A stretch of 64,000 nucleotides of DNA from Silvibacterium acidisoli. GTDB lineage: Bacteria; Acidobacteriota; Terriglobia; Terriglobales; Acidobacteriaceae. The notes under the pieces are model-generated. The model searched no databases. It saw only the letters and a program-made list of their open reading frames with translations, and was not told where the DNA came from. Made by a program: the position numbers and the translations under genes. How positions within the stretch are numbered: position 1 is the stretch's first letter; every line of letters starts with the position of its first letter. Positions 3,781 to 8,885 of this stretch are shown here, in pieces. The stretch covers positions 372,001-436,000 of the forward strand of contig CP085323.1 of the NCBI GenBank assembly GCA_022870745.1, written 5' to 3'.

Positions 3781-3909
3781 ACGCATCCAACGTCAGAGGC
3801 TCACAGCTTTCTTTTTGCAACACCGCACCATGCTGGGCTAAGGTGAAATTGACCCGAACGCCGGGTGCGGTCTTGCTGTAACTACTTCTCCCCCCGAAAA
3901 GGAAACAGC

Positions 3910-4941
3910 GTGAAGAAGATTGGCGTTCTGTTTGGCATGGAAAACACCTTTCCTGGTGCATTGGTTGACCACATCAACTCCCAGAACCTTAATGGCATAA
4001 CTGCCGAGTTCATACATACAGGCGCCGTCCGCCTGGACAAGCCGTCGGAGTATGCCGTTATCGTCGACCGGATCTCGCACGATATCCCGTTCTATCGGGC
4101 GTTCCTGAAGCATGCCGCTCTGCACGGAACCGCAATCATCAACAATCCTTTCTGGTGGTCGGCCGACGACAAATTCTTCAACTATGCACTGGCGGAGAAG
4201 CTGGGCGTGGCCGTTCCGCGCACCGCGATCCTGCCGCACAAACAGCTGCCTGCCGGAACGACCGAGCGTTCCATGCGCAACCTCGAATATCCGCTCGATT
4301 GGGACGGCCTGTTCGAATACATCGGCTTCCCTGCTTTCCTTAAGCCAATTGACGGTGGCGGCTGGCGCGATGTGCACCATGTCCACAACCGTGACGAGTT
4401 TTTTCACGCCTACGATCAGAGCCACACGCTGTGCATGATGCTCCAGAGCGCGGTCGACTTCAACGAGTACTTCCGCTGCTACGTGGTCGGCCAGCAGAAG
4501 GTGCGCATCATGGCTTACGATCCGCGCCGTCCGCACCATGAGCGCTACCTGGTGAACCCTCCCGCATACGACAAGAAGCTGCTGAAGCGGGTCGAAAAGG
4601 ACGCGATCACGCTCTGCAAGGGCCTCGGCTACGATCTGAACACCGTCGAGTTCGCCGTAGAGAATGGCGTACCGTACGCGATCGACTTCATGAATCCCGC
4701 TCCGGATGCGGATCTGCACTCCGTCGGCGAGGAAAGCTTCAAGTGGATCGTGGAAGAGGTGGCAAAGCTGGCGATCAAGAAAGCCAAGGCCGCGCCCGCT
4801 CCAATCGCTCTCCATGCCGAGGCGCTGCTGCATGCTTCGCAGGAAACTCCTGAAAAGAAGAAGGCTCCGAAGAAGTCCGCAAAGAAACCAGTCAAGCCCA
4901 AGGCAGAGAAAAAGGTAGAATCGGGCGAGACTGAAAACTGA
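3910..4941 (+). CDS. ATP-grasp family ligase with basic C-terminal tail
   Basis: 343 residues from GTG at 3910, preceded by GGAAA at a good distance; the frame is open further upstream but lacks a ribosome site. The core has the ATP-grasp arrangement: pre-grasp segment, FPAFLKPIDGGGWRDVH (ATP lysine and glycine loop), and VEFAVENGVPYAIDFMNPAPDADL (the Glu/Asn metal ligands near the C-terminus of the fold). Such proteins activate a carboxylate with ATP and join it to an amine. The last 50 residues are a Lys/Ala/Pro-rich tail (EKKKAPKKSAKKPVKPK), probably disordered and nucleic-acid or acidic-partner binding. A YbdK-type ligase starts 43 bp downstream, suggesting one peptide- or amide-forming pathway. 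The substrate is unknown. Confidence 0.82.
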   Translation: MKKIGVLFGMENTFPGALVDHINSQNLNGITAEFIHTGAVRLDKPSEYAVIVDRISHDIPFYRAFLKHAALHGTAIINNPFWWSADDKFFNYALAEKLGVAVPRTAILPHKQLPAGTTERSMRNLEYPLDWDGLFEYIGFPAFLKPIDGGGWRDVHHVHNRDEFFHAYDQSHTLCMMLQSAVDFNEYFRCYVVGQQKVRIMAYDPRRPHHERYLVNPPAYDKKLLKRVEKDAITLCKGLGYDLNTVEFAVENGVPYAIDFMNPAPDADLHSVGEESFKWIVEEVAKLAIKKAKAAPAPIALHAEALLHASQETPEKKKAPKKSAKKPVKPKAEKKVESGETEN

Positions 4942-4984
4942 ACCGGCGCATTGTTGCCCCACGCGTGCGCGGAACGGCGGGACA

Positions 4985-6094
4985 ATGCGGCCATCTTTCA
5001 CCATCGGCATTGAAGAGGAATACCAGACCATCGATCCGGTAACCCGCGATCTTCGTTCGCACGTTTCAACGGAGATGCTGTCGAAGGGCAAGCTGAAGCT
5101 CGAAGAGCGCGTCAAGGCCGAGATGCACCAATCGGTCGTCGAGGTCGGGACGCGCGTCTGCCGCACCATCGGCGAAGCGCGCGAAGACCTCTTCGACCTA
5201 CGCCGCCAGATGATTCACCTCGCACGCGAAAACAATCTGCGACTGGTTGCTGGGGCCACCCACCCGTTTGCCGACTGGCGCGCGCAGGAGATCTACCCTG
5301 ATCCCCGCTACGCGCAGGTCGTCGAAGATCTCCAGCTCGTGGCGCGAGCCAACCTGATCTTCGGCCTGCACGTACACGTGGGCGTCGAAGACCGCGAAGC
5401 AGCCATGCGCATCATGAACTCGATGCGCTACTTTCTGCCGCACATTCTTGCGCTCTCGACCAACTCCCCGTTCTGGCGCGGCATGAAGACGGGCCTCAAA
5501 AGCTACCGCGCAAAGGTCTTCGACAAATTCCCGCGTACGAACATTCCCGACAGCTTTTCAAGCTACGCGGAGTTTGAAAGCTTCGTGGCCCTGCTCATCA
5601 AGACAAACTGTCTCGACAATGCCAAGAAGATCTGGTGGGATATCCGCCCGCATCCTTTCTTCAACACCGTCGAGGTGCGCATCTGCGATATTCCGCTGCG
5701 CGCCGAGGAGACGCTGGCTATCGCAGCGCTGATCCAGGCGACGGCCGCCAAGATGTACCTGCTGCACGAGCGCAACCAGGACTGGAGGCAGTACTCCCGC
5801 GCCCTCATCATGGAAAACAAGTGGCGCGCTGTACGCTATGGACTCGACGGCAAGCTGATCGACTTCGGCAAATCAACCGAAGTGCCCGAGCGAGAGCTGA
5901 TTCTTGAGTATCTCGACTTCGTGGAAGAGGTCGTCGATTCGCTGGAGTCGCGCTCGTCGATCGAATACGTCAAAAAAATTCTGGAGATGGGGACAGGAGC
6001 CGACCGGCAACTGCGCGTCTTCGACGAAACCGGGGGCGACCTCAACGCGGTCGTCGACTACATGGCGGAAGAGACCGAGGCAGGGCTGTTTTAG
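4985..6094 (+). CDS. YbdK-type carboxylate-amine ligase (glutamate-cysteine ligase family 2)
   Basis: 369 residues. The N-terminus FTIGIEEEYQTIDPVTRDL carries the GCS2 signature with the EEEY acid cluster. Further family motifs are VEVGTRVCRTI, GATHPFADW, GLHVHVGVED and WWDIRPHPFFNTVEVRICD. Length matches YbdK (about 372). E. coli YbdK has weak gamma-glutamylcysteine synthetase activity in vitro, so the physiological substrates are uncertain. It is probably co-transcribed with the upstream ATP-grasp gene, an arrangement reminiscent of two-step gamma-glutamyl peptide synthesis (GCS plus an ATP-grasp ligase), which is inference. Followed by a strong terminator. Confidence 0.9.
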   Translation: MRPSFTIGIEEEYQTIDPVTRDLRSHVSTEMLSKGKLKLEERVKAEMHQSVVEVGTRVCRTIGEAREDLFDLRRQMIHLARENNLRLVAGATHPFADWRAQEIYPDPRYAQVVEDLQLVARANLIFGLHVHVGVEDREAAMRIMNSMRYFLPHILALSTNSPFWRGMKTGLKSYRAKVFDKFPRTNIPDSFSSYAEFESFVALLIKTNCLDNAKKIWWDIRPHPFFNTVEVRICDIPLRAEETLAIAALIQATAAKMYLLHERNQDWRQYSRALIMENKWRAVRYGLDGKLIDFGKSTEVPERELILEYLDFVEEVVDSLESRSSIEYVKKILEMGTGADRQLRVFDETGGDLNAVVDYMAEETEAGLF

Positions 6095-6223: not shown

Positions 6224-6754
6224 TTAAGCGACCGCCGCGGCCAGTTTTGGATAGAGCACGTACTGGCTGGTTTCGTACAGGGCTAACAACCGCTTCGAAA
6301 GCAGGTAGTAGGAAGATGCCGCCTGGTGGATGTGAAAAGGCGTCCGCAGGCCGCTGCGCTTGAGATAAAGATCGATCTGGATGCGGAACAGGGCGCGCTT
6401 CAGCAGGTTCGAATCGTGACGGATGCGCTCCGCGACGATGATCGCCTGGTCGAAGTTCCAGCGCTGGACGTAAGCCGCCAGCAGGATCATGCGGTCAGCG
6501 TTGCGACGCATGCGCTTCAGACCGTCGACACCGCCTACCAGGGTCCACATTTCGTCCGGCTCGAGCTTGAGCTGATTTCCCGCAGGATGCATGTAGTCCA
6601 GGGCGACGATTTCAAGCGCCTTGGCATGCACCGGTTCAATAGAAGCGACCAGATCGTCCCAGCTTCCGGAACGAAGCCGCCGAGCCTTCACGTGTGCGTA
6701 GATCAGTGAGGCTGCAATAACTGCCGCAAATACGATGATTGCCGAAAAGACCAC
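6224..6754 (-). CDS. hypothetical single-pass membrane protein
   Basis: 176 residues. One N-terminal membrane segment (VFSAIIVFAAVIAASLIYAHV) is followed by a basic stop-transfer KARRLR and a helical cytosolic domain rich in Leu/Arg (LKRMRRNADRMILLAAYVQRW, ERIRHDSNLLKRALFRIQIDL). No domain recognised. It starts 9 bp after the end of the upstream polytopic membrane protein gene, so the two are almost certainly one operon. Function unknown. Confidence 0.75.
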   Translation of the reverse strand: MVFSAIIVFAAVIAASLIYAHVKARRLRSGSWDDLVASIEPVHAKALEIVALDYMHPAGNQLKLEPDEMWTLVGGVDGLKRMRRNADRMILLAAYVQRWNFDQAIIVAERIRHDSNLLKRALFRIQIDLYLKRSGLRTPFHIHQAASSYYLLSKRLLALYETSQYVLYPKLAAAVA

Positions 6755-6763
6755 GTTTTACCC

Positions 6764-7540
6764 TCAACTCAGCGAATCAAAATGACTGGTGCTACGTAAG
6801 TCCACTGACACCCGGCGATGAAGCGCCGCCAGATACTCTTGCATGTCGTCAGACAGTGTACGAGATTCCGGTTCGGGAATCCAGAACGTAATGATCCAAT
6901 AAATTGTTGCTGCCTGGAAGATAATAACTCGGGCAAACTCGAGTCTACCCACCAAAGTTGTAGGACCATAGTAACTATGGATAGCGTCGGTGCAGAGAAC
7001 TACCAGCGCCCAGACCGTAAAACCCTGCCCCAAACCCATGACATGATTGCGCCAGACCAGCCCCAGACGCGAAGATGCGAAGGCCATGGACGCAAAAAGC
7101 TCGCACATCAGCAAGGTAGCGAACAACCGCCCCTTTGTTAGCCAACTAACAAAGGTGGTTGGCGTCTCAGGACTTACTGCGAAGGAAAGCCCGACAGCTA
7201 TCAGGGCACCAACCGCTCCCCACAAAAGAAAGGACTTCCGAGCGTCCCGCACCCACGTACCGGTGGGTTTCAGGACGATGCGTGCCATTTCGAAGACCAG
7301 CGTCACCTGCAACACCAGGTCGATGCACGCAGCCGACCAGTACACACCTGGGTAGACAGCATCAAGGCCCGTCTTGATAAGGGTGAAGAGAACCGCGCTG
7401 CGGAGAACGTTAAAACCCATCAAGGCCGAGAAAACAGGAAACTTTCTCCAACGGCCTCTTCCTAAAAGAACCAGCGTCAGCACGCAGGTTTCAATGAAAC
7501 CTGCGTACCACAATAGCCGGCTTAGCGTGCTCGATTCCAT
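6764..7540 (-). CDS. hypothetical polytopic membrane protein
   Basis: 258 residues with about seven hydrophobic segments (for example LLWYAGFIETCVLTLVLLG, SFLLWGAVGALIAVGLSFAV, FTVWALVVLCTDAI, VIIFQAATIYWIITFWI) and a charged C-terminal tail. The topology recalls small seven-helix membrane proteins common in Acidobacteria genomes, but I recognise no catalytic motif. It is the first gene of a two-gene unit with the downstream 176-residue membrane protein. Function unknown. Confidence 0.72.
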   Translation of the reverse strand: MESSTLSRLLWYAGFIETCVLTLVLLGRGRWRKFPVFSALMGFNVLRSAVLFTLIKTGLDAVYPGVYWSAACIDLVLQVTLVFEMARIVLKPTGTWVRDARKSFLLWGAVGALIAVGLSFAVSPETPTTFVSWLTKGRLFATLLMCELFASMAFASSRLGLVWRNHVMGLGQGFTVWALVVLCTDAIHSYYGPTTLVGRLEFARVIIFQAATIYWIITFWIPEPESRTLSDDMQEYLAALHRRVSVDLRSTSHFDSLS

Positions 7541-7666: not shown

Positions 7667-8317
7667 TTACGCTGAAACAGTCAGGCCACCCTTCGATTTT
7701 GGCATCGGATCGCTGCCCGTTACCGCTGCAATCGTCGTCAGGCCACCCTTGGACTTCGGCATTGGGTCGCTACCCGTTACCGCTGCGATCGTCGTCAGGC
7801 CACCTTTCGACTTCGGCATCGGATCGCTACCCGTCACCGCTGCGATCGTCGTCAGGCCACCTTTCGACTTCGGCATCGGATCGCTACCCGTTACCGCTGC
7901 AATCGTCGTCAGACCACCCTTCGACTTCGGCATTGGGTCGCTGCCCGTTACCGCTGCAATCGTCGTCAGGCCACCCTTCGACTTCGGCATCGGATCGCTA
8001 CCCGTCACCGCTGCGATCGTCGTCAGACCACCCTTGGACTTCGGCATTGGATCGCTACCTGTCACCGCGTGCGTATTCGTCGTCAGACCGCCCTTCGACT
8101 TCGGCATTGGATCGCTACCCGTTACTGCTGCAATCGTTGTCAGACCACCCTTCGACTTCGGCATTGGGTCGCTGCCCGTCACTGCACGCGAAATTGTTGT
8201 CAGGCCGCCCTTGGACTTCGGCATTGGATCGCTGCCGGTCACCGCTGCATGCAGGCTGGCAGTCGAAAGAAAGGCAAGGGTGGAAGCAAATACGACGTTA
8301 TGAAAAATGGTTTTCAT
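7667..8317 (-). CDS. secreted protein of ten tandem 19-20-residue repeats
   Basis: 216 residues. A signal peptide (MKTIFHNVVFASTLAFL, likely cut after SLHA) is followed by exactly ten repeats of AVTGSDPMPKSKGGLTTIA and no other domain. Eight units are 19 residues; units 1 and 3 are 20 and end in ISR and NTH; unit 10 ends in VSA and the stop. The core AVTGSDPMPKSKGGLT is identical in all ten, while the DNA varies at wobble positions (TCG/TCC for Ser, GGC/GGT for Gly, ACC/ACG for Thr). That pattern indicates selection on the peptide in this frame. The start has GGAG at a good distance (ACGGAGAAACCG before ATG). No neighbour obviously modifies or exports it. It could be a structural surface protein, a metal- or polymer-binding protein, or a multi-copy peptide precursor; none can be shown. 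Confidence 0.85.
   Translation of the reverse strand: MKTIFHNVVFASTLAFLSTASLHAAVTGSDPMPKSKGGLTTISRAVTGSDPMPKSKGGLTTIAAVTGSDPMPKSKGGLTTNTHAVTGSDPMPKSKGGLTTIAAVTGSDPMPKSKGGLTTIAAVTGSDPMPKSKGGLTTIAAVTGSDPMPKSKGGLTTIAAVTGSDPMPKSKGGLTTIAAVTGSDPMPKSKGGLTTIAAVTGSDPMPKSKGGLTVSA
7680..8245. repeat. tandem 57-60-bp repeat array inside a gene
   Basis: Ten direct repeats of 57 bp (60 bp in two units), without spacers. Because the period is a multiple of three, every frame that lacks a stop in one unit stays open on both strands. This creates long meaningless frames on the plus strand. Confidence 0.9.
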
Positions 8318-8627
8318 CGGTTTCTCCGTTTAAGTAGTTAGAAAGTTATCGGTTACCGCACAGCAATACTGCGAACGGTGAATTTTGACGCGCGAGGCGC
8401 CATGCTTCGTGGGCCCGGAAATTTAGATTGGCGAACTGGCTACCGGTCACGGCGGCCGCGCGGATTTTTGCGCTCAAAATCGCTAGGGCGTAAACAGATA
8501 TCTGCTCGCAAAGGCTCCGCTCCAAAGATCTCTCCTTAGTAAGGATCTCTCCCCATGTCGGCGAGGTGCGCAGTATCCCCGATATTAGTCAGGTAGAAAT
8601 ACATTGCCGCAACAGGTATTAGATTTG

Positions 8628-8744
8628 TCACCTGATGGCATCGTGCAGTCGGGCGGGAACTAGTCGAAGGACGGCGGTGGGCTGCCGGGCGTCAACGAAG
8701 ACTTCGCGACGAAACCAGAGCGGACAGCGAACAGGGATATTCAT
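8628..8744 (-). CDS. possible small protein, 38 residues
   Basis: Starts MNIPVRCPLWFRREVF and is Arg-rich, with no recognised family. The reason to list it is the start context: GGAG sits seven bases before ATG, and the 17-bp stretch reading TTCATCGG, two variable bases, TCTCCGT (plus strand) is shared with the leader of the repeat-protein gene at 8313-8330. Coding is unproven; the ORF could equally be chance in GC-rich DNA. Confidence 0.22.
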   Translation of the reverse strand: MNIPVRCPLWFRREVFVDARQPTAVLRLVPARLHDAIR

Positions 8745-8885
8745 CGGAGTCTCCGTCAGGCACGGAATGCTTTCCACCATCTGAGCGTAAAACTCTTTTA
8801 GTTACACAACAATAGAAACTTTAACCAAAAACAGAAAATTTTAGCACAACTTAAAACAACTTTTTGCAGCTTACTCCAATTCGGT

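Follow-up and report, generated by a model that had tools for sequence, protein, structure and literature searches.

A repeat peptide gene in the stretch of DNA analysed here (the window; 64,000 nucleotides, positions 372001-436000 of one 5.36 Mb contig) belongs to a conserved, lineage-specific module of the Acidobacteriaceae, made up of three genes, which encode a peptide carrying a Sec-type signal, a seven-transmembrane (7TM) protein, and a membrane-anchored helical protein. The earlier note on this DNA did not take in the most important context, namely that the next two genes downstream encode the usual partners of the peptide. Since peptide genes usually adjoin a gene for the same kind of seven-helix protein, an undescribed bacterial peptide-signalling system is suggested, resembling by analogy the mating pheromones of yeasts and their receptors. 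In the reading that we put forward, which in our judgement stands an even chance, the peptide would be the ligand, the adjacent 7TM protein the sensor, and the third protein the relay of a cell-surface module.

The peptide gene (7667-8317, minus strand; identified from its open reading frame and its relatives) encodes a secreted repeat peptide precursor of 216 amino acids. It starts with an ATG preceded by a Shine-Dalgarno-like sequence, ACGGAGAAACCG (8318-8329, minus strand; read directly), with GGAG six bases 5' of the start. The first 24 residues, MKTIFHNVVFASTLAFLSTASLHA (8246-8317, minus strand), have the composition of a signal peptide, with similar starts in relatives, which agrees with the secreted look described in the earlier note. 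Repeat analysis gives ten tandem units (7670-8245, minus strand), each consisting of the core AVTGSDPMPKSKGGLT and a linker of three to four residues; TRF reports a period of 57 bp, 9.9 copies, and 87% matches. The earlier description of ten identical repeats holds for the 16-residue core, the peptide of which is identical in 10/10 units, and does not hold for the linkers (TIA seven times, TISR, TNTH, and a final VSA). The statement that each repeat starts after Ala-Ala was also inexact: TIA precedes Ala at seven of the nine inner junctions, ISR and NTH at the remaining two. As to the cleavage into ten 19-mers considered possible in the earlier note, an Ala-X-Ala-like junction is found at 7/9 positions in the window and, by eye, in several long-period arrays, and is absent in short-period arrays, for example GVTGTDPRPQ x3.

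The DNA of all ten units is mutually different, and ten differing copies with one core peptide rule out a chance or assembly repeat. All 13 polymorphic columns in the core DNA are third codon positions, so that the variation is synonymous only, as had been noted; pairwise comparison of the cores between units counts 245 differences at codon position 3 and 0 at positions 1 and 2. Selection on the core peptide, the conclusion drawn earlier from the window, finds further support in 17 arrays, in which the polymorphic columns are distributed 21/20/135 over the codon positions (135/176 at position 3), changes at anchor residues being undercounted in this tally because the units were chosen by those residues. 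The third-position pattern cannot alone choose the strand, since an antisense frame (7749-8303, plus strand) shows the same pattern, with 8 units, 11 polymorphic columns, all at third positions, and one variable residue; this frame mirrors the repeat and varies almost only synonymously because third positions face third positions. The choice of the minus strand rests on the signal peptide, the Shine-Dalgarno sequence, relatives in the same frame, and the co-directional partner genes.

Pfam, NCBIfam, PHROGs, and PADLOC yielded no credible match to the peptide precursor or to either partner; for the precursor, the weak hits in PHROG (E 0.0044) and NCBIfam (E 0.017) are far below usable and were taken as composition. 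A sequence similar to the beginning of the peptide gene, ACGGAGACTCCGATGAA, lies at 8560-8780 (minus strand). A relic of a second peptide gene 5' of 8345 was considered and rejected, its local score (24, against a shuffled maximum of 26) being not significant.

The search for relatives proposed in the earlier note found proteins with the same layout and other units. The whole repeat protein, compared with 200 family genomes, gave nothing convincing except one fragment from another genus (G070, locus L004), with units AAVSGTDPRPKGTIV and running into an assembly gap; other weak whole-protein matches were dropped. A first contig scan of genomes with the repeat protein yielded zero relatives, and the window's own repeat has no clear match in eight other genomes of its genus. 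The unit of the G070 fragment, used as second query on 398 family genomes, retrieved secreted repeat proteins in G119 (GITGSDPRPPKSSVVVA x12), G262 (GVTGTDPRPQ x3), G219 (TVSGSDPRPA x2), G294 (AVSGANPRPQ x3), and G017 (KGIIGSLPRPAGTLQA repeats); matches in 6 of the 13 genomes matched (G036, G079, G087, G260, G302, and G360) were chance-like on reading and were dropped. The usual peptide of closer relatives has a signal peptide, one core (for example NISGGNPHPQ, SVTGTDPEP, or GPGGNDPPPP; typical pattern G-x-[DN]-P-x-P), and often a hydrophobic tail, and distant paralogous loci have other short peptides instead of the usual core. Short secreted peptides 5' of distant 7TM paralogues (L111, L113-L119) mostly have at least two cysteines, e.g., ADGNPGTDCPKGLVCKP; these cysteine-bearing peptides are possibly a disulfide subtype. 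The n-regions of the signal peptides are alike across genera by eye ([NKT]KS[IL]RN[LV]-like).

In the window the three genes are read from one strand: first that of the secreted peptide, next the one for the seven-helix membrane protein (6764-7540), and last the one for the one-helix-plus-bundle protein (6224-6754). Going from peptide to partner, 6/7 peptide loci other than the window's own have the 7TM and third genes directly downstream (G119, G262, G219, G294, G017, and G070:C6); in G017 homologues of both partner genes of the window come next after the repeat gene and share its strand. The seventh locus, G070:C29, has neither partner and runs into an assembly gap. Going from the 7TM gene, 62 of the 66 distinct loci have a short secreted peptide gene at most 330 nt upstream of it, compared with 70 of 192 other genes taken as background (loose rule; Fisher p 1.7e-17). 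Distinctness of the 66 loci was judged by eye, with identical peptides among the criteria. The loose rule flagged 65/66. Three of these were removed by hand, L054 and L055 because the upstream open reading frame is another 7TM gene and L112 as a probable chance match; L071 has no short secreted peptide gene. L048, L056, L083, and L162 were left out for too little upstream DNA, and L159 for want of a 7TM match. Under a strict rule (peptide stop 10-150 nt upstream, plus core motif) the counts are 22/26 7TM loci and 6/192 background genes (p 6e-21); at least two of the six background positives resemble longer secreted proteins. The loci missed by the strict rule are L086, whose peptides lie at a greater distance upstream; L091, with 7TM genes in tandem; L076, for which the called 7TM start is too early; and L108, with a peptide that has no core motif.

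The third gene was found in 65/66 loci of the neighbourhood set, some genomes being counted in two copies; among 20 loci, a BLAST-detectable third protein is absent from nine distant ones (L111-L119), most of which have a short downstream open reading frame. Outside apparent clade synteny no gene other than the 7TM and third genes recurs, as judged with a crude gene caller that clustered the 7TM gene in 29/36 loci and the third gene in 27/36, so that a neighbour shared by a moderate number of loci may have escaped notice; one 7-locus cluster resembles the antisense of the third gene. The absence of an adjacent modifying enzyme, remarked on before, fits this comparison, in which none is common to the loci. 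ATP-grasp/GCS2 genes at 3865-6094 were rejected as modifying enzymes: among the clusters listed, those of the 7TM and third genes are the only ones that include the window. In one clade (L098, L100, L101, L103-L107, and also L102) the peptide gene is adjoined upstream by a gene for a secreted protein, which we take to resemble an M13-type peptidase; this neighbour could act on the peptide, processing or degrading it, or its position could simply reflect synteny.

Array sizes across the family run from 2 to 24 units. Peptide copies are also multiplied as genes: two genomes of the window's genus have tandem single-core genes 5' of the 7TM gene, seven in G117 (L122) and four in G066 (L121; one interrupted by N), each of about 40 residues and with similar products. 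Repeat arrays and tandem genes are shown by these loci to be parallel routes to higher peptide copy number. The window's own genome has a second module some 12 kb ahead of the window (L109; C1:357700-363500), in which a peptide with 9 x SPATPRPLPPPAVAFA lies upstream of a diverged 7TM gene; the second locus in five congeners has 7, 7, 5, 7, and 8 units of species-specific variants. Judging from these second-locus arrays, units are near-uniform within an array and differ between species. Three of the six second-locus 7TM genes are on the 7TM tree, where they form one clade; the other three were not placed. On this tree (60 rows, labelled by hand, 18 as 'array' and 38 as single core) the array label requires 6 changes, at least 3 of which are forced by supported branches.

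These counts bear on the fibre or coat raised in the earlier note, and more generally on a structural, multivalent repeat protein (fibre, coat, or matrix) anchored by the 7TM protein. Long arrays, up to the 24 units of Acidipila sp. EB88, and units rich in Pro/Gly would suit such a role, but the single core in 38/60 tree loci (hand labels) means that repetition is not common to all members, and separate tandem genes of 39-40 residues are unable to form a repeat fibre. With so many single-core or tandem single-core relatives, the single peptide is probably the functional unit and a fibre or coat is disfavoured; we regard the structural explanation as highly improbable.

Sequence change was compared in five Edaphobacter/Granulicella loci. 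The dN is 0.09-0.42 for the mature core (resting on ten codons, with core dS high and saturated in 6/10 pairs), 0-0.06 for the signal peptide, 0.04-0.15 for the 7TM protein, and 0.01-0.07 for the third protein; given the ten codons and the high, partly saturated dS, what is seen is faster change of the core and not positive selection.

The second gene (6764-7540, minus strand) encodes a seven-transmembrane protein of 258 amino acids, a putative receptor or partner, predicted N-out/C-in and with a C-terminal helix. Homologues were found in 151/200 family genomes (E<=1e-5), and named genomes, Acidipila rosea, Paracidobacterium acidisoli, and Edaphobacter lichenicola among them, contributed 30 loci. 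A 7TM profile matched 28/31 family genomes and 0/266 other genomes of the phylum, the 31 being counted in a kinship-sorted listing that omits 249 genomes without a match, with at most nine candidates scored per genome. The structure model, built from 29 sequences (pLDDT 82.5, pTM 0.74), shows seven helices followed by one more at the C-terminus; the predicted orientation follows from positive inner loops and the alternation, but in contrast to those loops the C-terminal tail, predicted to be cytosolic, is acidic on balance (4 K/R, 7 D/E). Conservation is 3.64 bits in the inner loops and 2.25 in the outer, a contrast matched by 1/219 circular shifts in alignment A4 and, more weakly, by 16/219 in the broader A2.

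Fast change of the mature core, a hypervariable peptide beside a membrane protein, and the hydrophobic C-terminal tail of many single-core forms (e.g., VISVFGL) could also be explained by a bacteriocin-type module, in which the secreted peptide inhibits relatives while the 7TM and third proteins give immunity. We consider this quite unlikely: the 7TM family is present in those 28 of 31 family genomes, with multiple copies in some (five matches in G117); it is the cytosolic and not the outer side of the 7TM protein that is more conserved; and bacteriocin, immunity, or defence family matches in the libraries (Pfam, NCBIfam, PHROGs, PADLOC) number zero.

A GPCR fold of the 7TM partner is putative. 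Rhodopsins and GPCRs make up most of the top rows of a Foldseek search, alongside a few talin-like bundles, and the best row (E 0.019, TM 0.45) is not significant; with VIA, run on the 1000 best Foldseek chains, all 50 entries listed are GPCR-type or GPCR-like, with 180-204 residues aligned, rmsd 3.2-4.8, and Z 11.0-12.5, a range that helical bundles can reach by chance. No 7tm Pfam family was matched by the window protein (E up to 10) or by any of 25 members (E up to 0.1), and PDB sequences gave no credible match to the 7TM family (best E 0.78). The third protein (6224-6754, minus strand; 176 amino acids), with one N-terminal TM-like helix and a helical bundle, has no significant fold match, nor was a credible match to its family found among PDB sequences. 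Searches with the two partner proteins brought up no kinase or DNA-binding family.

In a different explanation the 7TM protein would serve in maturation, release, or export of the peptide instead of sensing it, and the repeat or single-core peptide would have another surface role. A single Pfam match of the 7TM protein, very weak and to the CAAX-protease N-terminal domain (E 4.7), would fit this, as would the frequent adjacency of peptide and 7TM genes and signal peptides that are unusually conserved in one strain set (the dN of 0-0.06 above). The peptide signals are ordinary and Sec-like, however; no catalytic motif was recognised by eye among the conserved columns of the 7TM protein, and profile searches brought up no protease or transporter family beyond chance-level matches of single members. 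Maturation or export is in our opinion an unlikely role for the 7TM protein.

Under the ligand-sensor-relay reading, the peptide, as a mature GxDPxP-like core or as proteolytic pieces of an array, would act outside the inner membrane as ligand of the 7TM protein, the conserved cytosolic side of which would pass the signal to the third protein, as first cytosolic relay. With repeats, each transcript would yield more ligand copies, or the ligand would become multivalent, as with the fungal alpha-factor precursors. More tentatively, and with the chances in our view somewhat against it, a bacterial equivalent of the yeast mating pheromones may have arisen within the Acidobacteriaceae, which are abundant soil bacteria, with multi-copy precursors, a GPCR-like 7TM receptor, a dedicated helical effector tethered to the membrane, and, in some genomes, several co-diverging ligand-receptor pairs that would give species-specific signals. 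No recognisable description of the module was found in the open-licence PMC literature searched, although one may nonetheless be in print; in a comparative genomics paper on Acidobacteria (PMC5900883) 'peptide', 'quorum', and 'seven transmembrane' occur 0 times. If true, a family-wide hypervariable peptide and an unannotated 7TM protein would be a new bacterial way of sensing peptides, and the module would supply ready ligand-receptor pairs to test.

Among known systems, bacterial peptide quorum sensing (Agr, ComX/ComP, Rap-Phr, Rgg-SHP) shares with the module a gene for a short secreted, fast-changing peptide beside a putative sensor; the module differs in that no histidine kinase or transcription factor was found in it, and in its GxDPxP core, its array amplification, and its Acidobacteriaceae host. 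Multi-core RiPP precursors (plesiocin, cyanobactins) likewise have several identical cores per precursor, but in the module no modifying enzyme is common to the loci, and a Sec-type signal takes the place of a leader peptide. With eukaryotic GPCRs and microbial rhodopsins the 7TM partner shares seven helices and the predicted N-out/C-in orientation; it differs in the absence of a sequence match, the Foldseek result is not significant, and the VIA scores are within the chance range of helical bundles. STE2, the fungal partner of alpha-factor, is a 7TM GPCR. The peptide does not belong to the fungal alpha-factor family: there is no sequence relation, and the window units are without dibasic Kex2 sites (K-S-K but no KR, RR, or KK, by eye); compared with fungal pheromones, the partner gene is adjacent in the Acidobacteriaceae module, no G protein is known, and the GPCR fold is not established. 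In a study on Huntiella (PMC10182648), the alpha-factor precursor consists of a signal peptide and repeats of one short mature peptide, a-factor is multiplied both by repeats and by gene copies (up to seven), and the pheromone units are conserved within species and sensed by receptors. Fungal alpha-factor/STE2 is the nearest working analogue, internal repeats, and in a-factor also extra genes, raising copy number in the fungi as in the module.
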